In this document: positions 3,821-42,287 of the stretch, piece after piece | How the letters are laid out: every line of letters starts with the position of its first letter | Numbering within the stretch: position 1 is the stretch's first letter | IMG/VR virus record: IMGVR_UViG_3300020152_000011 | Location: 1-42,287 of that record | DNA length: 42,287 bases | Strand: one strand, 5' to 3' | Origin: a virus | Position numbers and translations under genes: made by a program | The notes under the pieces: generated by a model | Databases searched by the model: none | Seen by the model: only the letters and a program-made list of their open reading frames with translations | What the model was told of the DNA's origin: nothing

Positions 3821-5292
3821 TGACCTACTCGCTCTTCGACGACGAAGATCTGAACGCGTTCGAGCGCGAGCGTCAGGAAATGGCGATGCTCGAGAACGCG
3901 TATCTCGCGCCTCCGAGCGGCATCGCTCCGCTGCCGAGCTCGCCGCCGCCACAGCTCGCCGAACCGATGGCGCCGCTGCGCGACGACGGCACGGCGCCGG
4001 ACTGGGCGACGGCGGTCAGCATCGGGGCGAGCGGGCTCGGCGCGATCGCCGACCTCGCGCTCAACAAGGGGCGCAACACCGGCGCGATCCTGGCGGCGGG
4101 TGCGGCCGGCGCGGATCGAAGTGCCGACATCCGACTGCGCTCGCGGCAAGAGGCGATGCAGTACGAGAAGGAGCGCGCGCGGCAGGGCCTCGAGCAGCAG
4201 CAGCTCGCTGAACGCGCGAAGTACAACCAATACTTGGACCGATCGCTCGGTGCGCGAGTCGACAAAGAGCATGCGCTGAACGAGGACCGGGACGCCTCGC
4301 GAGGGATTCGTGAGCAGGGGCAGGACCCCTCAGCGTTTATCGCGTGGGCCAAGACGAAGGGCTACGACCTGGGTGGCCTCAAGACCATGGCGCAGGTGCG
4401 CTCTGCGATGGGTCCGCTCGTGAAAGAGTGGGAACTCGAGCACGCGGACGACAAGGCCGGCGCGACGGCACGCGGACGCATCACAGCGGAGAACGCGCTC
4501 GCTGAGCAGACGGGCCGAGCGAAGGCGACCGAGTTCGAGCAGCAAACGCCAGCCGCGGTCGCGCGAGCCGAGCAGACGGCTCAAGCCACGATGGACGAGA
4601 AGGCGACGCTCGCGGGCGAGCAGGCCGGCGCGCGCGAAGCAGCCACCGGCGCGGGCGAGTCGCGGCGCGAGCAGCGCTCGCAGTCGAAGATGAACAAGTT
4701 CCGCGACGAGACCGAGAAGACGCGGCCGCTCGTCACGATCGGCAAGAACCTCGACTCCGTGATGGCGAAGTACCCGGGCGACCAGCCCGGCGTCGGCATG
4801 TGGGACTCGTTCAAGAGCGGCAAGCTGTCGAACGAGGACGATCTCGCGGTGCGCAACGCGGTCAGCAACATGACCGACCTCGTGGCGCGCGTGCGATCCG
4901 GCGCGGCCATCCCGCCGCCCGAGTTCGAGAAGATCGCCGGCTTCGTGGCGGGCGGCACCGGCGCGACCGAGCAGCAGTTCAAGATCGCGTGGGCGGCGAC
5001 GAAGCGCTGGCTGCAGACCGAGATGAAGCAGCAGAGCGCCGGGCGCGAGAATGAGGCGCGGTCGGTGCTCGGCGGCGATGCGGACTGGGCGCTCGGCCCC
5101 GCTCCGGCTCCAGGCGGCGCGGGGCCGATCCGGCTGGGTCCGACAGGGGGCGGCGCTCCGGGCGCCGTGAACATGCCGGCAGCGGGCGGCGGCGGCATGG
5201 TGCCGGTCGTCTCGCCGAGCGGGCAGCGCGGCATGGTGACGCCCGAGCAGGCGCAGCAGCTGCGCGGCAAGCCGGGATGGCAGGTGCCCTGA
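3820..5292 (+). CDS. Candidate internal virion / ejection protein
   Basis: 490 aa, ATG 3820 in an ATGA-type overlap. The N-terminus has acidic and Pro-rich segments, then a short Gly/Ala-rich hydrophobic patch (near residues 65-100) followed by a long Gln/Glu/Arg-rich probable coiled coil. The C-terminal approximately 80 residues are Gly/Pro-rich and flexible. No catalytic motif is visible. It is the second of three consecutive large, coupled genes after the nozzle, the usual place for podovirus ejection proteins. Function is inferred from position and composition only. Confidence 0.75.
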   Translation: MTYSLFDDEDLNAFERERQEMAMLENAYLAPPSGIAPLPSSPPPQLAEPMAPLRDDGTAPDWATAVSIGASGLGAIADLALNKGRNTGAILAAGAAGADRSADIRLRSRQEAMQYEKERARQGLEQQQLAERAKYNQYLDRSLGARVDKEHALNEDRDASRGIREQGQDPSAFIAWAKTKGYDLGGLKTMAQVRSAMGPLVKEWELEHADDKAGATARGRITAENALAEQTGRAKATEFEQQTPAAVARAEQTAQATMDEKATLAGEQAGAREAATGAGESRREQRSQSKMNKFRDETEKTRPLVTIGKNLDSVMAKYPGDQPGVGMWDSFKSGKLSNEDDLAVRNAVSNMTDLVARVRSGAAIPPPEFEKIAGFVAGGTGATEQQFKIAWAATKRWLQTEMKQQSAGRENEARSVLGGDADWALGPAPAPGGAGPIRLGPTGGGAPGAVNMPAAGGGGMVPVVSPSGQRGMVTPEQAQQLRGKPGWQVP

Positions 5293-7070
5293 TGCCGGGT
5301 TTCGACGAAGAGCTGCAGCAGGCGCTCGGCGGCGGCGGTAGCTCGTTCGACGACGAGCTCAACGCAGCTCTGGGCGGCGGCTACCCGCAGGTGGGCGTCA
5401 CGCTCGAAGGTCTCGACGCGGAGCGCGCGGCTGCCGAGCAGTCCGCGTTCAAGCCGTGGTCGGGGCCGGCGCAGGTGCCGCTGCAGCAGAGCTCGAGCGC
5501 GGGCGCGGCGAAGTGGGGCACGCAGCACGACCCCGAGGCCGGGCTGTGGGAAAGCGTGCTCGAAGGCGGCAGCGACTTCGGACAGCGCGCCGCGCAGTCG
5601 GCGACGTTCGGCTACGGCGACGAGATCGTCGGGGCACTGGCGGGCGAGCAGCGCGGGCAAGCGGTACGGGATCGCCAGCAGCTCGCACAGGAGCGCTCTC
5701 CCGGCTGGTCGCTCGCAGGCGACGTGGCGGGCGGCCTCGGCATGGCTGCCGCTACCGGCGGCATCGGGCATGGAATCCGGGGCGCAGCGGCGACGGGCGC
5801 TCTCGAGGGCGGCTTGGCCGGCGCGGGGTACGCCGACGACGGCGATCGCCTCGAAGGCGCGCTGCAAGGCGCTGGGGCGGGCGCAGCGCTCGGCGGTGCG
5901 GGTGGTGCACTCGGCGCGGGCGCGAGCGGTGCGGCCAGCTGGGTGGGCGAGAAGGCGGCCCCGTGGCTGCGCGAGCAAGGCTTGCTCAACCGCGTCGCGA
6001 GCTCGGGGCTCTACGGCGGATCGATGGATCGCCTCGCGCAGAACCAAGGCGGCAAGCAGGGCGTCGCGCAGCTCGGCGAGTGGATGGAGAACCATGGCCT
6101 GACGCAGTGGACGCCGGAGGGCATCGGCGACGAAGCGGCGAGCATGAACTCGATGTGGCAGGGCGATCAGCGCGCCTTCATCGACGATCTCGCGGGCCGG
6201 CCCGAGGGGATGCCGATGGTCGACACCGGCGCGGTCGGCGACAAGCTGCGGCGCGAAGCCGGGCAGCTATCCCAGCTGCCGGACGCCGACTCCGCGCGGC
6301 AGGTGACGCAGTATCGGCAGGAAGCCGAAGCGCTCGCGAACAAGAGCGAGTGGGACCAGATGCCGTTCGATCAAGCGCTGCGCGCACGGCAGGGCTACGA
6401 CAAGGCGGTCAACTGGGACAAGCTCGGCGGCTCGCGTGAGGACGGTCTCTACGAAGAGGTGGCGCGCGACGCTGGCAACGGGCTCCGCGGTGGCCTCGTG
6501 GAGTCGCTCGAGAACACGTCGCCCGAGCTCGCGCCGCGGTGGGAGTCGATCCAGGAGAACCTCGGCAACAGCGCGACGATCGCTGGCGTCGGGAACTCGC
6601 GCGCGATGCGCGAGTTCGGTAACCAGCCTCTGTCGCTGCCTTCGCTGATCGGTGCAGCTGGCGGCGGCTTTCCGGGCATGGTTGCTGCGGCAGCCGTCAA
6701 GACGGGTGGACGCGCCGGAGCAGCGAACGTGCTCGGCGGCGCGAGCAAGGCTGCGAACTGGATCGGCGACATGGCCGGGCCGGCGGGAGCTTTCGGCGAC
6801 GCGGGCGGCGCGATCGCAGCGCAGGAAGCGGGACGGGACGAAGGGCAGCAAGCGTCGCGAGGCTTCATGCTTCCGCAGGCGGCAATGCAGTTGCTGCAGA
6901 GCGAGCCGCAGGCGCTTGGTCCCTATCAAAAGCAGTTCGCTGACGCCGCCGCGAGTCCGGACAGCGGCGCGGTCAAAGCGCTCCTCACGAAGCTTCGCCA
7001 GAGCGATGAGACGTGGCGCACTACCTACCTGCCGAAGCTGCAGATGGTCACGGGAGAGCTCGACTTCTGA
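5292..7070 (+). CDS. Candidate internal virion / ejection protein with Gly-zipper segment
   Basis: 592 aa, ATG 5292 coupled to the upstream stop. The first 35 residues contain a duplicated short motif (FDEEL..ALGGG / FDDEL..ALGGG). Residues roughly 140-225 are extremely Gly/Ala-rich with GxxxG spacing, suiting membrane insertion during genome delivery. Further helical regions and a second Gly/Ala-rich stretch (about 455-520) follow. No lytic transglycosylase or peptidase motif was found, so wall-degrading activity is not claimed. It is the third of the large candidate ejection proteins. Confidence 0.75.
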   Translation: MPGFDEELQQALGGGGSSFDDELNAALGGGYPQVGVTLEGLDAERAAAEQSAFKPWSGPAQVPLQQSSSAGAAKWGTQHDPEAGLWESVLEGGSDFGQRAAQSATFGYGDEIVGALAGEQRGQAVRDRQQLAQERSPGWSLAGDVAGGLGMAAATGGIGHGIRGAAATGALEGGLAGAGYADDGDRLEGALQGAGAGAALGGAGGALGAGASGAASWVGEKAAPWLREQGLLNRVASSGLYGGSMDRLAQNQGGKQGVAQLGEWMENHGLTQWTPEGIGDEAASMNSMWQGDQRAFIDDLAGRPEGMPMVDTGAVGDKLRREAGQLSQLPDADSARQVTQYRQEAEALANKSEWDQMPFDQALRARQGYDKAVNWDKLGGSREDGLYEEVARDAGNGLRGGLVESLENTSPELAPRWESIQENLGNSATIAGVGNSRAMREFGNQPLSLPSLIGAAGGGFPGMVAAAAVKTGGRAGAANVLGGASKAANWIGDMAGPAGAFGDAGGAIAAQEAGRDEGQQASRGFMLPQAAMQLLQSEPQALGPYQKQFADAAASPDSGAVKALLTKLRQSDETWRTTYLPKLQMVTGELDF

Positions 7071-8134
7071 TGCAACGCGCAGCCCTCAGAGCAACGATCG
7101 GAGGCGTCCCGCGGGATGTGCCGCTCGGCGCGTTCTCGAGCGGCCAGGTGATGGCCTACGATTCGACAACCAACGAGTTCAAGGGCGTAGCTGGCGGCGG
7201 CGCGGGCGAGCCAGGTCCAGCTGGGCCGGAGGGACCCGCAGGTCCGCAGGGGCCGGAGGGCCCAGCTGGTCCAGGCGTCGATCCCTACGCCGTGCAACCA
7301 GGTAATCGCGCGCTCCGCCAGGAGCCTCTGCTCTGCATGTACCTGAGCGACATGGGCCTGCAGGCGGGCGTTGAGGCTGCGCTCGGAAGGCCGATCGATG
7401 CGTTCCTCGCGTACACCGACGAGAACACGCTCACGAGCAACACGTTCGAGCTCAACAACAAGTTTGCCGCGGGACAGAAGGTGATCCTGTCGCACTCGCT
7501 CGTGCAGGCCGGGCAGAGCCTCGCGACTGCAGCCAGCGGCGGCTACAACGCCCTGTATGACCAGTGCGTCGCGAACCTGATCCCGTACAAAGATCGGATT
7601 CTCAGCATCCGGATCGGGTGGGAGTTCAATAAGGCGAGCGGCTATCCGTGGGACCGAAGCGCGATCGGTTGGAGCGCGGCGAACTACGCGCAGGCCTTCG
7701 GCAACTTCGCGATCCGCATTCGGCGCGGCATGCCCGATGTCTTGATCGACTGGTGCCCGCTGTGGGATCAGCCACTCGCGGACGCGTATTACCCCGGCGA
7801 TGAGTTCGTCGACATCGTCGGGAACGACGTCTACGTCAACAGCGCCAACTGGTCGGACTCGTACGTAAACCCGTACCAGGCGGCGAACTGCTCGCTGCGC
7901 TGGCAAGAAGAGTTCGCGAGGCTGCACAACAAGTTCCTCGCGCTGCCGGAGTGGGCGACGAACTACAACACCGGGACCCTCGTGCGTCGTATCGGCGAGT
8001 GGCTACTGCGACCGAGAGCCGCAAACCGCGTCGTCTACCACGGCTATTGGAACAGTGACTTGGCATTCGCGGGCGCGTTCGCAACGCATCCAAACAACTG
8101 GGTCGCGTTCCAGGAGAAGTTCGAAAGGACATGA
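7070..8134 (+). CDS. Tail fibre with collagen-like stem and GH26-like glycanase domain
   Basis: 354 aa, ATG 7070 in a TGATG overlap. Residues 1-45 look like a virion attachment segment. Residues about 46-69 are eight Gly-X-Y triplets rich in Pro, a collagen-like trimerising stem. The remainder resembles a TIM-barrel glycoside hydrolase of the GH26 (beta-mannanase) type. RIGWEFN carries the likely acid/base Glu185 at the end of strand 4, VDIVGNDVY lies in the following strand region, and LPEWA carries the likely nucleophile Glu294. The inferred role is binding and cutting a host surface or capsular polysaccharide. Substrate cannot be read from sequence; endoglucanase or another clan GH-A activity is possible. 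Confidence 0.75.
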   Translation: MQRAALRATIGGVPRDVPLGAFSSGQVMAYDSTTNEFKGVAGGGAGEPGPAGPEGPAGPQGPEGPAGPGVDPYAVQPGNRALRQEPLLCMYLSDMGLQAGVEAALGRPIDAFLAYTDENTLTSNTFELNNKFAAGQKVILSHSLVQAGQSLATAASGGYNALYDQCVANLIPYKDRILSIRIGWEFNKASGYPWDRSAIGWSAANYAQAFGNFAIRIRRGMPDVLIDWCPLWDQPLADAYYPGDEFVDIVGNDVYVNSANWSDSYVNPYQAANCSLRWQEEFARLHNKFLALPEWATNYNTGTLVRRIGEWLLRPRAANRVVYHGYWNSDLAFAGAFATHPNNWVAFQEKFERT

Positions 8135-8137
8135 GTC

Positions 8138-8476
8138 ATGAGTAACTCAGACATCGCATCCGCACTCGATCGGTGGGCGCCGACCGTCGGCGGACCACAG
8201 CGCAGCGCGTACGCAGCCGGTGCGAACGCGGCCGTGCAATTCCGCACGGCCGCAGACTTCCCAGTGTACGTGAGCGTGCTCGCGACCGGCGCGCTCGCAG
8301 ACGGCGCGCACATCGTGTTCGGCGACGCAGACGTCGCCGCGCCGACGGTGGCTGATCCTCTCTTCTGCCTCGAAGTCGGATACCAGGACGTGATCGCGCC
8401 GAAGGGTGCGACGCACTATCGGGTGTTCGGCGAGGGCTCGGGCGGACACGTCTACATCATGGCGTCGGGGCGGTGA
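8138..8476 (+). CDS. Small hypothetical virion-associated protein
   Basis: 112 aa, ATG 8138, 3 bp after the fibre gene. The composition (short hydrophobic strands, Ala/Gly-rich, few Lys) suggests a compact beta domain; no signal peptide or transmembrane helix is seen. Its stop overlaps the next ATG (TGATG). Being between the fibre gene and another beta-rich gene, it could be a fibre accessory, chaperone or capsid decoration protein. The family is not recognised. Confidence 0.7.
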   Translation: MSNSDIASALDRWAPTVGGPQRSAYAAGANAAVQFRTAADFPVYVSVLATGALADGAHIVFGDADVAAPTVADPLFCLEVGYQDVIAPKGATHYRVFGEGSGGHVYIMASGR

Positions 8477-9297
8477 TGTCGCGACGGCTGGGTACACGAC
8501 GGCCGGGCCGTGGAGGCTTCGGCGCAGCGTCCGGCGGCGGGGGAACTCCGCCGCCGGTGATCCCTACTCCGCCGCTGCCGGCTGCAGTCGGGGACTGGTG
8601 GCACGCCGAGCTCGACTGCGATCCAACGCAGTGGATCTCGCAGATCCTCGCGAACGTGCTGGCGGGCGTGAACGCGCCGACGGTCGCGGTGGATGCGGGC
8701 TTCTTCAACGACACACTCGTTGCGCAGGCGACCGCCACGGGAGACCTCTGGTCAGCGATCGCGCTCGCAGGCGTCGGGATCTCGGCAGGCGATCGGCCGT
8801 ACATGTGCGGGACGTGGCGGCACAGGACACCCGCGACGGGCACACAGGATCGAATGTGCCTCTCGATGCGTGGCGGCTCGAGCGGCACAGAGGCTCAGAT
8901 CCGCACCGGCTGCGATAGCGACGGCGCGGGTAACGACTTCTTCATGGCTCGCCGGCAGAACGGATTTACAGGCGGCACGGCGGCGAGCGGCGACATCCAG
9001 GACACAGATGCGCACTTCTGGGAGATCTTCTGCGACGCGACGCTGGGCACCGTCGTCGCAATGGACGGCGTGATGATCGCGAACGACGCGAGCGCGAATC
9101 CCGGGCTCACCACATTCGCGAGCGCGGTCACGATGGTTGCGGTCGGTGCGAGCTTCAGCGGCGCGTTCCCAACCGTCACGACGATCAACAACGCGAACGT
9201 ATCGATGAAGTGGTTTTTGCTGGCGCCGAGCGTCCCGACCATCGCCGAGCGCGACGCGCTGCTCCTCTATTCTGAGGTCGAATACGGCACCCCATGA
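8476..9297 (+). CDS. Beta-rich tail protein, possibly lectin (LamG/ConA)-like
   Basis: 273 aa from ATG 8476, which sits in the upstream stop (TGATG); an in-frame GTG 3 bp earlier is an alternative start. The N-terminal 40 residues are basic then Gly/Pro-rich, like a linker. Residues about 45-270 form an alternating beta pattern with the layout of concanavalin A-like domains (FWEIFCDATLGTVVAMDG, later VSMKWFLLAPSVPT and a C-terminal LLLYSEVEYG). Such domains are common in phage receptor-binding proteins. This assignment is by pattern only, so the lectin fold is a suggestion. Confidence 0.65.
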   Translation: MSRRLGTRRPGRGGFGAASGGGGTPPPVIPTPPLPAAVGDWWHAELDCDPTQWISQILANVLAGVNAPTVAVDAGFFNDTLVAQATATGDLWSAIALAGVGISAGDRPYMCGTWRHRTPATGTQDRMCLSMRGGSSGTEAQIRTGCDSDGAGNDFFMARRQNGFTGGTAASGDIQDTDAHFWEIFCDATLGTVVAMDGVMIANDASANPGLTTFASAVTMVAVGASFSGAFPTVTTINNANVSMKWFLLAPSVPTIAERDALLLYSEVEYGTP

Positions 9298-9767
9298 AAC
9301 ACATCCCAAGCGGTTTACCTCCCGAGGAGTCTTGGCCGCAGCACATGCTCATCGCTCGAGCTGAGATCGGCGTGCGTGAGGCGCCCGGCAAAGCAGACAA
9401 CCCGCGCGTGCTCGAGTACCTGCGAGCGACGCGGCTGCCGGAGAAGGCGATCCGCGACAGCACGAACTGGTGCGCCGCGTTCGTCTGCTGGACGCTCGAG
9501 CAAGCCGATCTTTCAAACCCCGGCTACGCGATGGCCCGGCGCTTCATGTCCTACGGACTGCCGCTCGAAGAGCCGCGCTTCGGATGCATCGCGGTTTTCA
9601 GCCGACCGCCCGACGAGAACTCTGGCCACGCGGCCTTTTTTACTGACCAGGTCGGCCATGACATCCTGGCCCTTGGAGGCAACCAACGCGGCGACGCCGT
9701 GTGCTTCGCCAGCTACCCGAAAGAGCGCTTGCTCGGATACCGCTGGCCTGTGAAGCAAGACCGCTGA
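9294..9767 (+). CDS. Endolysin, TIGR02594/CHAP-like cysteine peptidoglycan hydrolase
   Basis: 157 aa, ATG 9294 overlapping the preceding stop (ATGA). The catalytic pattern of NlpC/P60-CHAP type hydrolases is visible: Cys60 in TNWCAAFVCW, His112 in SGHAAFF and a polar third residue (Asn130 in LGGNQ). Length and motif order match the TIGR02594 family of phage lysins. The predicted role is cutting peptide bonds of peptidoglycan at the end of infection. There is no signal peptide, so release would need the neighbouring holin candidate. Confidence 0.85.
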   Translation: MKHIPSGLPPEESWPQHMLIARAEIGVREAPGKADNPRVLEYLRATRLPEKAIRDSTNWCAAFVCWTLEQADLSNPGYAMARRFMSYGLPLEEPRFGCIAVFSRPPDENSGHAAFFTDQVGHDILALGGNQRGDAVCFASYPKERLLGYRWPVKQDR

Positions 9768-13730: not shown

Positions 13731-14078
13731 TCAGCCGTTTTTGTCGTCATTCGAGCCTGAAACCGTGTCCGCAGACCCCGCAGTGATCGCAGTTTCCGGC
13801 ACACATGGAGCACACGACTCGAGCGGACCGTGTCGTGCGTCGGCGGACTCGGCCGCGAGCCTCTCCAGCTCGGAGAGCATCTCGTCCGCGTCTTCGATGA
13901 AGCCATGGCGGTCCCCGCGGTTGCTGCAGAGCCCGCCCAGCACCGCGTTGTAGGTGCGGTGCCAGCGCTCTTGGCGATCGCGCTCGCCTTGGATGATCTT
14001 CCAAATCTCACCGACCACGACCCCCGAAGCGCTGATCGCGCGCGTGTCGTCGTCGTAGGTGAACTCGTACTTTGCCAT
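13731..14078 (-). CDS. Hypothetical protein sharing a domain with the 27230 gene
   Basis: 115 aa, ATG 14078 overlapping the integrase stop (ATGA). After a short beta-like start (YEFTYDDDTRAISASGVVVG), residues from about 34 on read ERDRQERWHRTYNAVLGGL and end near ARHGPLESCAPC. This region matches the C-terminal half of the rightward gene at 27230-27814 (DRWHATYNATLTGL ... AHGPLEQEC). Function unknown; it sits between int and attP. Confidence 0.65.
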   Translation of the reverse strand: MAKYEFTYDDDTRAISASGVVVGEIWKIIQGERDRQERWHRTYNAVLGGLCSNRGDRHGFIEDADEMLSELERLAAESADARHGPLESCAPCVPETAITAGSADTVSGSNDDKNG

Positions 14079-15163
14079 CACGCCTCCTTCTTTGCCTGCT
14101 CGCGCTTCCGAAGCGGCGCCAGCTTGGCGATCGCCTCGTGCATGTGCTCGCCCTGCCCGACCCGGGCGTAGACCCGCTCCAGCATCTTCGTGCTCTTGTG
14201 GCCCATCAGGTGCATCAGGTGCAGAATCGGCACGCCGGCCGCCGCCAGCTGCGTCGCGAACGTCCTACGCAGGTCGTTCAGCGAAAGCTCGGCCAGCCGG
14301 TAGGTGCGCCACTTCTGCTTCACAACCTTGACCGGCCCGAAGCCGGCTCGCGCCGCGTATTGGCGGAGCTCGCGATCGTAGTTCCCCCAGCGGGCAAACA
14401 TCGGCGAGCACGCGCGGCGCGCCCACAGGATCTCGTAGACCTCGGGGCTCATCGGTAGTGGCCGATCGCGGCCGCCGCGCTCGTCGGTTTTCACCTTGGT
14501 CCCGCGCACACGCACTTCGCGAAGCTCCCAGTTACAATCATCGGGCGTGATCTTATAGAGCTCGGCTCGAGACAGTCCGAGGTGAAGGTACATGACGACG
14601 TAGTCCCGGCGGTTCGCTGGGGTAGCCGCCAACAGCTGCAGCTGTTCCGAGCGTGTGAGGAACCGCTCTTTCGGCACGCCGTCCGACAGCTCGGGCATCT
14701 TGGGCGGTTCGACGCCAGCGGCCCGGAACGCAAGGGCGAGTTCACGAAGCTCTCGCTTCACGGTCGGCGAGGCGCGCGTTGCCAGAGCCACCTTCACGTA
14801 GCCGTCGATGTCGGTGCAGCGCTCGATTGCCGTCTTCGATCCGAAAAACTCGAACAGCGGCTTCGCCTTGTCGAGCACGATGTCGAGGGTCGCCTGCGCC
14901 CGCCCCGCAAGCGACTTCTTGCGGATCAGCGCTTCGAACGCTTGCTCGATGGTCGTCGGGTGAGCGACGCGATTCTTGCCAAGCGCAAGAGATTGCTCGA
15001 TGTCGCGTCCGACGATTTCAGCTGTGCGTCGGGACTTGGTGGTGCCGTCGTCTCGGATGCCGGTGCTTCGTCGCTTCTCCTGGCGCTTTCCATCGGCCCA
15101 GTAGTGGGCTTTGACGTACCAGTATCGATCACCGGTGCGGAGTTTTCTCGAGTAGACGTCCAT
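14078..15163 (-). CDS. int: Tyrosine integrase (site-specific recombinase)
   Basis: 361 aa, ATG 15163. It has an N-terminal arm-binding region with a beta pattern (RYWYVKAHYW), then a core-binding region (about 70-160), then the catalytic domain. Catalytic candidates are Arg199 in LGLSRAEL, Arg299 in LNDLRRTF, His322 in LMGHKS and nucleophile Tyr332 in ERVYARV. The usual His of the H-x-x-R box is replaced by Asn296, a recognised but uncommon variation. The gene adjoins attP and an excisionase-like HTH gene, so it should catalyse integration into tRNA-Val and excision. Confidence 0.93.
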   Translation of the reverse strand: MDVYSRKLRTGDRYWYVKAHYWADGKRQEKRRSTGIRDDGTTKSRRTAEIVGRDIEQSLALGKNRVAHPTTIEQAFEALIRKKSLAGRAQATLDIVLDKAKPLFEFFGSKTAIERCTDIDGYVKVALATRASPTVKRELRELALAFRAAGVEPPKMPELSDGVPKERFLTRSEQLQLLAATPANRRDYVVMYLHLGLSRAELYKITPDDCNWELREVRVRGTKVKTDERGGRDRPLPMSPEVYEILWARRACSPMFARWGNYDRELRQYAARAGFGPVKVVKQKWRTYRLAELSLNDLRRTFATQLAAAGVPILHLMHLMGHKSTKMLERVYARVGQGEHMHEAIAKLAPLRKREQAKKEA

Positions 15164-36828: not shown

Positions 36829-38154
36829 ATGTCAGCAATCGATCCTGCCTTTGCGGCAGACTTTACCGATCGCTACGCGGAGTACCTGAATCCTCTCCCC
36901 GAGGTGAACTCCTTCCGTGAGTTCGCCCGGATGGTCCCGCCGAAGGACCGCGCCGGACGCCAGTTCCGCGGTCCGATCCAAGCGGCCATCTCACACGGCC
37001 AGACGCTCGACATCACGGGCACGGCCTACGCGCTGAACGCGGCGCGACCGGCGGGCCAGCTCGAATACATTTTGGATGGGTGTGATATCGCGCTGCGCGA
37101 CGTCATCCCGTACAGCGCGATGCTGAAGGGGCGCAACGGCGCCTCGAAGAGCGGCGACGCGGCGGCGTACTGGGAGCCGCTCGACCTCGTAATGATGACG
37201 CTCCTCCGGGGCGCCGAGCATTACAACGAGATCGCCTGCATGTTCGGCCCGGGTTCGGGCTCGACCATCGCGTGCGACATCGGCGAGGTCGCATCGTTCA
37301 CCGGCGGCACCGAGTGGAACGACGGCGTGACGGTGCGGCTGACGGCGGCAAGCTGGGCGCCCGGTCTCTGGAACAACGCTGGCAACGGCGGCAACACCAG
37401 CGGCGGCATGCTCGTCGACATCGTCGTAGCGGCCGGCACCTCGGTCGTGGCGAGCGGCGTCAACGTCGTCGGCGTAGGCGACCCGGCGTTGTGCGAGGTC
37501 ACATTCGGAACGGCAGCTGGTGGCGGCGTTGCAGTCGCGGCCGGTCAACGGCTGATCCCACACGGCTGGTACCAGAAGGCGTGTCTCGGCGTGCAGGGCA
37601 TCCTGCAGAACGTCGGGACGTTCGCGAACATCAACGCTGCGAACAACATCATCTGGCGCTCGCGCCAGTTCAACGCGGGCGGTCCACTGACGCGCGCGAA
37701 GATCCTCGCGATGTGCGCGAAGCTCTTCGCGAACGGCGCGAAGAACGGCCTCGTCGGCTTCGTGAACGCGCACACGTTCGCGGATCTCGCCGAAGAGACC
37801 AACGTGCCGACCGCGAGCGGCGGCCAGTGGTTCGAGAACGGAGCCGAGACGCGCGTGCAGGGCGCGACGAAGCTCACGTACCTGTCGCCGGTCGGCAAGG
37901 TGGAGATTCGTCTCCACGAGTACCAGAAGCAGAGCGTCTCGTTCTTCCTCGAGCCGGAGAACACGGTTCGCATCGGCGCCTCGGACATCACGTTCCGTGG
38001 TGCGGATGGAAGCGAAGGCTTCTTCCTCGAGCTGCCGAACAACGCCGGTAGCGAAATTCGCGTGCTCTCGCAGCAGGCGCCGCTGATCCGCGTGCCGTAC
38101 CGGTCCGCGATCGTGACCGGCATCGTGAACAGCAACCAGGACGCGCCCTCCTGA
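36829..38154 (+). CDS. Major capsid protein
   Basis: 441 aa, ATG 36829. It follows scaffold and has its own structured leader, as expected for the most expressed gene. A helical N-arm (PAFAADFTDRYAEYLNPLP) is followed by beta-rich domains with a Gly/Val-rich inserted region (about 180-230). The C-terminal P-domain-like part has RIGASDITFRGADG and LPNNAGSEIRVLSQ. Length is near P22 coat (430), so an HK97 fold is expected. The identification rests on order, size and composition. Confidence 0.85.
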   Translation: MSAIDPAFAADFTDRYAEYLNPLPEVNSFREFARMVPPKDRAGRQFRGPIQAAISHGQTLDITGTAYALNAARPAGQLEYILDGCDIALRDVIPYSAMLKGRNGASKSGDAAAYWEPLDLVMMTLLRGAEHYNEIACMFGPGSGSTIACDIGEVASFTGGTEWNDGVTVRLTAASWAPGLWNNAGNGGNTSGGMLVDIVVAAGTSVVASGVNVVGVGDPALCEVTFGTAAGGGVAVAAGQRLIPHGWYQKACLGVQGILQNVGTFANINAANNIIWRSRQFNAGGPLTRAKILAMCAKLFANGAKNGLVGFVNAHTFADLAEETNVPTASGGQWFENGAETRVQGATKLTYLSPVGKVEIRLHEYQKQSVSFFLEPENTVRIGASDITFRGADGSEGFFLELPNNAGSEIRVLSQQAPLIRVPYRSAIVTGIVNSNQDAPS

Positions 38155-38814: not shown

Positions 38815-39384
38815 GTGGCGAGCGCTGGACGCATTGGCGTCGGCATCGGCACCGGCGCTGCGAGCGGCGCTGCGATCGGCTCGGCTGTCGGCCCGTGGGG
38901 CACCGCGATTGGCGGTGTGGTCGGCGGTATCGGCGGCGCGATCGGTTCGATCCTGAGCGCCAGCGACGAAGCCAAGCAGCGCAACAACGCGCGGCAGCTG
39001 CTCGAGGAGCAGGCGCGCGAAGCGTCACAGCGCGAGTGGGAGCAGCGCGTTGCGGCGATCAGCGGGCTGTCGGGCAACCCGCTCTATCACGCCATGTCGT
39101 ACGAGCCGTACGACCCCAACGACCCGGACAGCGCGACGAACCAGGCGATCTCGCGGCAGATCGAGTCGACCTACCCCGAGTACCAGCCGGACTACGGCCA
39201 GCTGATCGGCTCGATCGCTGGTGCGGCCGGCACCGTCGGCAAGAACGCGATCGCGCAGAAGTGGGGACAGCCCGGGCCCGCGGACACCAACCCGTGGGCC
39301 GCGTACGCGGCGGTGCGTCCGACGTTCGGCGCTGCCTCGATGAACGCGCTCGCTGATGCCTACGGGCGGCAGAGGTACGGCTGA
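38815..39384 (+). CDS. Gly-zipper membrane-active virion protein
   Basis: 189 aa, GTG 38815. Residues 5-48 are a Gly/Ala/Ile-rich, GxxxG-type stretch (GVGIGTGAASGAAIGSAVG). A coiled coil (ARQLLEEQAREASQREWEQR), a Tyr/Asp-rich middle and a second Gly/Ala stretch follow. Such proteins among head-tail genes are often ejected into the host membrane, similar in concept to T7 gp14. Inferred role: channel formation during genome delivery. Confidence 0.6.
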   Translation: MASAGRIGVGIGTGAASGAAIGSAVGPWGTAIGGVVGGIGGAIGSILSASDEAKQRNNARQLLEEQAREASQREWEQRVAAISGLSGNPLYHAMSYEPYDPNDPDSATNQAISRQIESTYPEYQPDYGQLIGSIAGAAGTVGKNAIAQKWGQPGPADTNPWAAYAAVRPTFGAASMNALADAYGRQRYG

Positions 39385-40358
39385 TGCGAAGTGACGAGCT
39401 GCTCTCGTGGCTGCGCCTCGACGCGTACATCGGCGACGCGGCGGCGTATCCCGATCAGACCGACGAGGTGTTGCTCAACGAGCTGACGCACAAGCTGCAT
39501 TCCGTCTTCGAAGACATCATCGTAAAAGCGCGCTCCGGCTGCTGGCTGAAGTACGCCGACACGACGACGACGAGCGGCAAGCGGAAGTATCGGATCCCGG
39601 GCCGCGCGGTCGTCGGCGGTCTCGAGGCCGTCGAGATTGCCGCTGTTGGCGGCACGAACTACGGCGCGCTGAAAGAGATCCCAGCGACTGACGTGCAGGA
39701 CTGGGACGGCATCTCACCGGGCACGCCGCAGGTGTTCTGTCTGCAGGGCGATTACGTCGCGCTCTACCCCGTGCCGAACGCGGTGTTTCCGCTGCGTCTC
39801 AGTTTCTACATGCGTCCGCCCAAGCTCGTGCCGCAGCAGAGTTCGACTGTCGGCGGCGGCACGATCCGCGGCCGCCTCGTCGGCATCAATCCGGTCACAC
39901 GCAACTGCACCGTCAATGTGCTGCCCTTAGTCTACGAGGACGGGATATCGCCCGCGACGATCACGAGCGGCGACCAGCGGATCGACATCATCCGACCGGA
40001 TGGCTGGTTCGAGCCGATCGTCTTCGACGTCTCACAGACGTTCACCGGCACCTCGTTCACGCTCGGCGGTACGCAGGACCTGAGCGACGTGCAGGCCGGC
40101 GACTTCATGCGCGCGGCAGGTCAATCCGAATGGCCGCAGCTGCCGGCGGACTTCCATCGCTGCCTGGCGGACGTCGCGGCGATCAAGGTCGCGGTCGAGC
40201 TCTCGCTGCGCGAGAAGAATGACGAGCTCGCGAGCAACGTTGAGAGCGACCTCGTTCGATTCCGGTCGCTCCTTCTGCCGCGCGTGAAGAGTGAGCCGAA
40301 GACGACGCCGGTGTCGCTCAAGACGCGTGGTGGCGGCGGCGCCAGGTGGCTCCCGTGA
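39384..40358 (+). CDS. Head-tail adaptor (T7 gp11/gatekeeper-like)
   Basis: 324 aa, ATG 39384 (ATGA overlap). The N-terminal helix pair (MRSDELLSWLRLDAYIGD, ELTHKLHSVFEDIIVKARSG) and the beta module that follows (KRKYRIPGRAVVGGLEAVEI, YVALYPVPNAVFPLRLSFYM) match the gatekeeper/adaptor layout. A C-terminal helical part (DFHRCLADVAAIKVAVELSL) completes the pattern. It should form the ring joining portal to nozzle. The nozzle gene follows with a GTGA overlap. Confidence 0.75.
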   Translation: MRSDELLSWLRLDAYIGDAAAYPDQTDEVLLNELTHKLHSVFEDIIVKARSGCWLKYADTTTTSGKRKYRIPGRAVVGGLEAVEIAAVGGTNYGALKEIPATDVQDWDGISPGTPQVFCLQGDYVALYPVPNAVFPLRLSFYMRPPKLVPQQSSTVGGGTIRGRLVGINPVTRNCTVNVLPLVYEDGISPATITSGDQRIDIIRPDGWFEPIVFDVSQTFTGTSFTLGGTQDLSDVQAGDFMRAAGQSEWPQLPADFHRCLADVAAIKVAVELSLREKNDELASNVESDLVRFRSLLLPRVKSEPKTTPVSLKTRGGGGARWLP

Positions 40359-42287
40359 GGGAACTACTCGTCAGACCGCTCGGCATCGTCACGCAGCCGA
40401 ACCCTTACGGTCAGTACCCACTCGGCGCGTGCCTGGAGGCGCGCAACGTCGTCATGCGCGATCCGGGCGTGCTGTCGAGCGCACCGCTGCGCCAAGCGGC
40501 GGTCAACGTTGGGGCGGCGTCAACTGACGTGCTGCACCAGATCCTTCCGCTGCTCGCCGGACACCACCTCGAGGTGGTTCAGGGCGCGTCGTGGATGCTG
40601 CAGATCGACTCAGTCAACGTTACCTATCCGACGAACACGAACAGCCCCACCCCGCAGTATTCGGCAACTGGACGAGTCCAGCCTTTCATCGCGCGCGATC
40701 GCGCGTTTGTGAACTCGACGACCAACGGCATCATCGTCGCGGACACCATTTCGCCGCCGTCGACACCTGTTCCCGTCCGGCGCGCGGGGCTGCCACAGCT
40801 ACACATTGAAGACATCACATACTTGATTGCGAACGCAGTCGCGATTCCAGCCAACGGCTGCGCGGGATATGCGGTGCTTCTAAAGCGCGCTTTCGCCGAC
40901 GGCTACGAGGTCGTGTCGAGGCCATCGCCGATCGTGATCTTCTACAATAACCTGGGCGGGACGCGCGACGTTCGGATCACAGTCAACATCTCCCCGAGCA
41001 CTGCGATCGACATCCGCGTTGGAGACGTCGTTGAGCTCTACCGCACGGACGTCATCTACAGCGCGACCAAGGCGACGGACCCCGGAACGACACTCAAGCA
41101 GATCGCGAGCACGGTCATCGACGCGGCGCACATTGCGGCTGGGGTCGTGGTGTTCGACGACGCGACGCTGCCGGGGATCCTCGGCACGACCTCCGGCAAA
41201 GAGCTGTACACGAACCCGGGGCAACAGGGCCAGTCCGGCGCGCACCGGCAGCCGGACATCGCTGCTTGCGCCGCGATGTTTTCCGGCTACGCGTTTTACG
41301 GCAGCATCACCGCGCGTCCGCAGTGGATCTTTCAGGTGCCCGCCGGAATCGGCGACACTCGCCAGCCTAACTGGGACACGGCGGCGTTCCGCACGCGCGG
41401 CATTGGCGTGCGCCACATCACGGGTGCTGTCGTCACGCTCGGCAGCCCCACGGTCACAGGGGTCAGCGCGGGACAGATGCTCGGCATTGTTGCCGGGCAG
41501 CGATTCGTGTTCGGTACGGGCGTTGGGGGCGCCAACTTCCCCACCAACGCCGAAGTCATCTCCACCACGGCGTCCTCGATCACGTTCAACCAGAACGCGA
41601 CCGGCGCAGGTACCGGCCTCGCGATACAGGACGTCGTCGAAGTGACGGCGGGCGGGAGCACGACCCCATACATCATCGATCCTCACTCCGACTGGGGCGG
41701 CTCGCCAGCATCGCTGGCCGGGTCGTTCGGCACCTTCGGGCGGCTCGAGATCACGACGTCAGAGAACCTCGTCCCTCAAGAAGACCCTGCGCTCGGCATC
41801 CGCACGATCCGATGGGTCGTTGAGCCGTTGATCCCGAACACCGCGCAGACGTTCTCGGTCCGCGCCACGAACGGGCAGAACTACTCGCCCTCAGTGCCGC
41901 TCTACCCTTCAGCTGCGGCTCAGGTAATCCCGTACAAGACCTACAAAAATCTCATCAAGTGGTCGAACGATGGGCAGCCGGAGCACGCGCCCTCGCGCAA
42001 TGAGGCGTTCATCGGCAACGGCGAGATCATCGCGATGGAAGCCACGCGTGACGCGTTGTGGATCTTCTGCACCGACGGCGTCTATCGATTGAGTGGCGCC
42101 GGCGGACAGTGGCGCGTAGATCTTGTCGACACGACGCTCGTAGCGTCGTCACCGCGTGCGACGACGGTGCTACGCGAAGCTGTCTACGCGTACACGAACG
42201 TCGGCCTCGTGCGCGTGACCGATGCGGGTGTCGAGCGCTTGTCGAGCGAGACGGTGTCGGCGCTGTTGCCGGGCTCAGAGTACGCAG
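40355..42287 (+). CDS. Tail nozzle-like protein, N-terminal part (continues at 1-696)
   Basis: GTG 40355 overlaps the adaptor stop. The frame is open to the window end and joins in register with the frame at 1-696, giving 833 aa in total. The opening (QPNPYGQYPLGACLEARNVV, then MRDPGVLSSAPLRQ) is characteristic of podovirus tail nozzle or hub proteins of the T7 gp12 type. Beta-rich, propeller-like segments follow (ALWIFCTDGVYRLSG). Its role would be the DNA exit tube and platform for fibres. Confidence 0.75.
   Translation, partial: MRELLVRPLGIVTQPNPYGQYPLGACLEARNVVMRDPGVLSSAPLRQAAVNVGAASTDVLHQILPLLAGHHLEVVQGASWMLQIDSVNVTYPTNTNSPTPQYSATGRVQPFIARDRAFVNSTTNGIIVADTISPPSTPVPVRRAGLPQLHIEDITYLIANAVAIPANGCAGYAVLLKRAFADGYEVVSRPSPIVIFYNNLGGTRDVRITVNISPSTAIDIRVGDVVELYRTDVIYSATKATDPGTTLKQIASTVIDAAHIAAGVVVFDDATLPGILGTTSGKELYTNPGQQGQSGAHRQPDIAACAAMFSGYAFYGSITARPQWIFQVPAGIGDTRQPNWDTAAFRTRGIGVRHITGAVVTLGSPTVTGVSAGQMLGIVAGQRFVFGTGVGGANFPTNAEVISTTASSITFNQNATGAGTGLAIQDVVEVTAGGSTTPYIIDPHSDWGGSPASLAGSFGTFGRLEITTSENLVPQEDPALGIRTIRWVVEPLIPNTAQTFSVRATNGQNYSPSVPLYPSAAAQVIPYKTYKNLIKWSNDGQPEHAPSRNEAFIGNGEIIAMEATRDALWIFCTDGVYRLSGAGGQWRVDLVDTTLVASSPRATTVLREAVYAYTNVGLVRVTDAGVERLSSETVSALLPGSEYA
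42161..42287. repeat. Terminal direct repeat, right copy (circle closure)
   Basis: Exact copy of bases 1-127. See the left copy for interpretation. Confidence 0.95.

Follow-up and report, generated by a model that had tools for sequence, protein, structure and literature searches.

Organization of the locus

The analyzed window, the complete 42,287-nucleotide stretch of IMG/VR virus record IMGVR_UViG_3300020152_000011, carries a gene for a protein that comprises an N-terminal segment, a Gly-X-Y run and a catalytic domain, in this order (Table 1). The open reading frame reported in the original prediction proved to be real. Its ATG shares one base with the stop codon of the upstream gene (TGATG), as in a late structural operon.

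Table 1. Features of the GH26 locus and of the surrounding phage genome
Feature	Position	Strand	Details and basis
Upstream virion-module protein, 597 aa, probable ejected/internal protein	5277..7070	+	Homologues at the same position in L031, L054 and L067; phrog_5880 (function unknown); role presumed
Fibre/GH26 gene, 354 aa	7070..8134	+	ORF; PF02156 above cut-off; syntenic homologues of ~40-44% identity
N-terminal segment, presumed attachment	7070..7195	+	Residues 1-42; alignment A8
Collagen-like (Gly-X-Y)9 run	7196..7276	+	Residues 43-69; sequence, shuffles, PHROG matches
GH26-type (β/α)8 catalytic domain	7319..8131	+	Residues 84-354; AlphaFold, VIA-align
Glu185, predicted acid/base	7622..7624	+	RIGWEFN; just after β4 (177-182)
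Glu294, predicted nucleophile	7949..7951	+	LPEWA; in β7 (289-297)
Small protein, 112 aa, directly downstream of GH26	8138..8476	+	phrog_6698 (function unknown); role presumed from position
274-aa protein, probable counterpart of the proteins downstream of GH26 in L067 and L064	8473..9297	+	Alignment, 24-25% identity
CHAP-like tail lysozyme/endolysin domain	9294..9767	+	phrog_1259, baseplate hub and tail lysozyme, E 7.6e-27; common to L067 and L054
Integrase	14078-15163	−	phrog_1
Major head protein, in the structural module running across the record ends into tail genes	36829..38154	+	phrog_14242; common to L031

Virion-module proteins are shared with phages in the IMGVR records 3300024179 (L031), 3300043608 (L054/L062) and 3300044728 (L067), the latter two of which also have the CHAP protein and the integrase. 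The integrase is 68% identical to that of L067 whereas the structural proteins are only ~30-45% identical; the phages are a temperate podovirus-like group. A large structural gene spans the record ends (from 40346-42286 on to 7-693), as shown by its homologues in L031, L062 and L067. The ends therefore join, and the record represents the genome in circularly permuted form.

The GH26 gene lies within the virion structural module, and its slot is kept in three relatives. In L031, L054 and L067 a GH26 protein of ~40-44% identity is encoded behind the probable internal virion protein, either immediately or one small gene later, and the GH26 start overlaps the preceding stop in the window, L031 and L054. 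In a phylogenetic tree the four phage GH26 proteins formed a single clade with a support of 100/100 on a long stem, apart from the bacterial sequences, which argues against recent capture from a host. This topology speaks for long residence of the protein in the phage group.

A tblastn search of the GH26 fibre protein against cultured phages gave no close relative, the single match (E = 5) being due to chance, and the N-terminal part had no match among cultured phages. A minus-strand match at 7177-7284 was discarded as the GC-rich complement of the collagen run. Exact-pattern searching of viral contigs for the GH26 fibre protein gave zero matches; alignment-based patterns retrieved L067. The virion-module protein encoded at 39384-40358 had no match in cultured phages, none among 398 genomes sampled from a single phylum, and none in 10 bacterial genomes with GH26 relatives, where only the L067 phage record matched.

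Predicted fold and catalytic residues of the GH26 domain

In a profile comparison, Pfam PF02156 (GH26) matched at 30.3 bits, above the curated gathering cut-off of 20.2, with its best stretch covering residues 219-265 only. The structure was predicted by AlphaFold from an alignment of 74 sequences (A4). From residue 91 on the pLDDT was mostly >90 by block, and the strand order was that of a (β/α)8 barrel. With a profile built from the 74 relatives, GH26 structures were found first (E 4e-31). The seven best solved structures by Z score (24.3-25.1) were all of CtLic26, which is the GH26 lichenase domain of Clostridium thermocellum endoglucanase H; they aligned over 254-259 residues at an rmsd of 3.0-3.1. 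VIA-align superposition on CtLic26 entry 2cip gave a Z of 25.1 over 258 residues with an rmsd of 3.1. GH26 xylanases (Z 21-23) and mannanases (Z 18-20) came next; GH5, GH10, GH51 and GH53-type enzymes had Z scores of ~18, leaving GH26 clearly above the other clan GH-A folds. The TIM-barrel-like domain suggested earlier thus appears as a confidently predicted barrel whose nearest solved structures are GH26 enzymes.

The glutamates of RIGWEFN and LPEWA were found where the original prediction had placed them, and their assignment to the GH26 acid/base and nucleophile positions also held. The profile alignment paired Glu185 with Glu109 of CtLic26 and Glu294 with Glu222, consistent with their location at β4 and β7 in the predicted barrel. 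Glu222 reads Gln in 2cip, which is a Michaelis-complex entry. Taylor and co-workers are said to have assigned, in 2005, Glu109 as acid/base and Glu222 as nucleophile of CtLic26. Both residues are highly conserved among the 74 sequences (Glu185 in 73, Glu294 in all). Profile score, predicted fold and placement of the catalytic pair identify the domain as a predicted member of family GH26.

Resemblance to CtLic26 (2cip, 2bv9, 2vi0) comprises the barrel fold and the aligned Glu pair, but sequence identity is 15%, CtLic26 has His before the acid/base where the phage protein has Trp, and it is a bacterial enzyme and no phage fibre. The GH26 β-mannanases (BoMan26A/B, CjMan26A/C) share the fold, the catalytic pair, and an Arg and a Tyr at matching spacings (R181 and Y255 here). 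They differ by a lower structural similarity and by the HE motif, and are not the nearest enzymes.

The Trp-Glu motif and the possible substrate

The residue preceding the acid/base is Trp184 in the window protein and Trp in 66 of the 74 sequences, as compared to His in classical GH26 enzymes (HE motif). In GH26 mannanases this His belongs to the −1 subsite (PMC6556568). The window protein does not have the His of mannanase branches A and B; in the absence of the HE motif we place it outside these branches and claim no mannanase activity. The label β-mannanase was set aside, given Trp for His and the lichenase as nearest structure. With Trp beside the acid/base, turnover or substrate may differ from those of the classical enzymes. 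No characterized member of the Trp-Glu branch was found.

The missing HE motif and the role of its His in the mannanase −1 subsite (PMC6556568) could also mean that the barrel has lost useful catalysis, with Trp184 in place of the His, and that the protein is a virion fibre that only binds glycan. We regard this as very improbable since both catalytic glutamates hardly vary among the 74 diverse sequences, and a protein that only binds would have no need of them. Furthermore, the HE motif is not a family-wide feature: it is unconserved in GH26 branches of unknown function and in the xylanase branch, to which enzymes of known activity belong (PMC6556568).

Mannan, suggested at the outset as an assay substrate besides host capsule, is not the likeliest target because bacterial relatives of the protein sit near exopolysaccharide genes; the closest characterized enzyme is moreover a lichenase. 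The surroundings of the relatives in Sphingomonas, Pseudorhodoferax, Sphingobium and Actinoplanes, read gene by gene for loci L077, L084 and L081, contain glycosyltransferases, flippases and acyltransferases. A GH26 protein of Actinoplanes, WpsE, is encoded within an exopolysaccharide cluster of the Wzx/Wzy type (PMC13390465), and is likened to the phage protein by GH26 family only. Since the closest structure is that of a mixed-linkage glucanase, and in view of these neighborhoods and the WpsE cluster, a bacterial β-linked exopolysaccharide would be the likeliest target. The bacterial Trp-Glu relatives near exopolysaccharide genes suggest where the substrate may be sought. Four alphaproteobacterial proteins of ~580-1060 aa (L076, L080, L083 and L089) carry the GH26 domain near the N-terminus, followed by long C-terminal parts.

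N-terminal segment and collagen-like run

The AlphaFold model gave no confident structure for the 42-residue N-terminus, pLDDT values being mostly <50 for residues 1-81, and no recognizable tail-anchor domain was found in the protein. The start of the window protein, MQRAALRAT, is similar to those of the same-slot relatives (MQRKGLRGT, MHRKGIRGT and MQRRGLN; alignment A8). A weak match to phrog_3449, tail collar, spans residues 24-72 and includes the collagen run. The protein encoded downstream of GH26 opens with an Arg-rich peptide (8473-8520 in the window, L067:8825, L064:2634; MMSRRLGTRRP, MVSRRAA, MTYERRYAGVGMERRG). This start resembles those of the GH26 proteins (MQRKGLR, MQRRGLN) and is perhaps a shared docking peptide. 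A lectin fold for the same downstream protein was unsupported, AlphaFold giving a pLDDT of 29.6 with three sequences.

The segment between N-terminus and barrel reads GGA-GEP-GPA-GPE-GPA-GPQ-GPE-GPA-GPG without interruption. The run that the original prediction described is therefore present, with nine triplets instead of the eight counted there, which were the last eight. No other run in any of the six reading frames of the window reaches eight Gly-X-Y triplets, and codon shuffling of the GH26 gene gave no such run in 20,000 trials. Its PHROG matches are collagen parts of tail fibres. The Pfam collagen profile PF01391 scored 13.5 bits, below its cut-off of 27.2, because the run is short; given this score, collagen-like refers here to the sequence alone. 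A run of nine triplets may not suffice to maintain a triple helix unless a trimerization domain assists, and no such domain was recognized in the protein. In alignment A8 the same-slot relatives L031, L054 and L067 do not have the run.

These properties, i.e. only nine triplets, a subthreshold profile score, relatives that lack the run and no recognized trimerization domain, would also fit a mere flexible Pro/Gly/Ala-rich linker, with the enzyme attached to the virion as a monomer and not as a collagen-stemmed trimer. We consider such a linker unlikely, though with some weight. The strict triplet register is unique in the window and the run resembles the collagen stretches of tail fibres. Phage collagens of E. 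coli prophages are known to be trimeric (PMC3368898), and a comparably short run is found in the streptococcal phage hyaluronate lyase HylP (PMC4585773). A linker is compatible with the explanation of the enzyme that we prefer below. Like the window protein, HylP is phage-encoded and pairs a domain for glycan degradation with a collagen motif near the N-terminus, (Gly-X-Y)10 (PMC4585773), but its catalytic domain is unrelated, being a triple-stranded β-helix lyase. Our literature search, which covered few subscription journals, did not turn up any GH26 fibre with a collagen stem.

GH26 domains in tail proteins and the proposed role of the enzyme

Scanning IMG/VR with the GH26 motif pattern gave 59 loci, and 42 of 54 proteins scanned matched Pfam GH26. 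In IMGVR_UViG_3300037143_000001 (L044), residues 81-135 of a single chain correspond to a typical tail-fibre N-terminus, and the chain also holds a GH26 domain and 14 Gly-X-Y triplets. GH26 and collagen run thus occur in one phage chain as in the window protein, and the tail-fibre N-terminus is recognizable; however, in L044 the collagen follows the barrel, Phe precedes the acid/base, the GH26 sequence is distant and the phage is otherwise different. At locus L015 a gene with two collagen runs and tail-fibre PHROG matches lies directly upstream of a GH26 gene, in a module that includes a head protein and a protease. The fusion in L044 and the adjacency in L015 imply that GH26 and collagen stems meet in tail proteins more than once. 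Six Gly-X-Y triplets in L042 were rejected as collagen, belonging to a Gly-rich start.

GH26 genes on viral contigs have so far been read as auxiliary genes of the carbon cycle, such as those annotated in mangrove and tundra soil viruses (PMC6460857, PMC10127799), and mannanase activity has been described for a viral GH5 (PMC6786970). By analogy the window protein could be an auxiliary metabolic enzyme that is soluble and produced during infection to degrade an environmental polysaccharide such as plant mannan. This is improbable: the gene is inside the virion module, overlaps its neighbor and occupies a conserved slot, the protein has a collagen-like stem and an N-terminus that reads as without hydrophobic signal peptide, and GH26 is fused to tail-fibre parts elsewhere (L044). 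In view of the slot, the stem and the tail-fibre fusions we set the AMG label aside. Gene position and independent fusions support a tail-fibre protein, and here point to a virion part used for entry.

With a probability of about 0.7, we propose that this podovirus-like phage carries the protein on its virion as a polysaccharide depolymerase with a collagen-like stalk. The N-terminal peptide would dock on the tail and the collagen-like run would serve as a stalk that holds the enzyme at a distance, perhaps in trimeric form. The GH26-type barrel would then cut a β-linked exopolysaccharide of the host by a two-glutamate retaining mechanism with Glu185 as acid/base and Glu294 as nucleophile, and this action could let the particle bind and then advance to the cell. 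A related dependence exists in Erwinia phage S6, which needs host cellulose as its first receptor and whose GH5 enzyme degrades a cellulose model substrate (PMC9544554). This β-1,4-glucanase, gp095, is similarly a phage clan GH-A enzyme tied to an exopolysaccharide as first receptor. It differs in belonging to GH5, a collagen stem is unmentioned in the report, and S6 is a Schitoviridae phage (PMC9544554).

A depolymerase used for entry changes the auxiliary reading for this phage group and yields a testable set of depolymerases. More tentatively, and at somewhat under even odds, the Trp-Glu branch of GH26, which is common to phages and bacterial exopolysaccharide clusters, may represent an uncharacterized class of depolymerases for bacterial β-glycan, mounted by phages on their tails by means of collagen stems that one phage may have and a close relative lack.

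At least one of the IMG/VR GH26 matches is host DNA. The viral GH26 of L014 (3-683) equals a gene of Parafrankia soli (L137), at zero branch length in the tree, and L014 is probably the host flank of a miscalled prophage.
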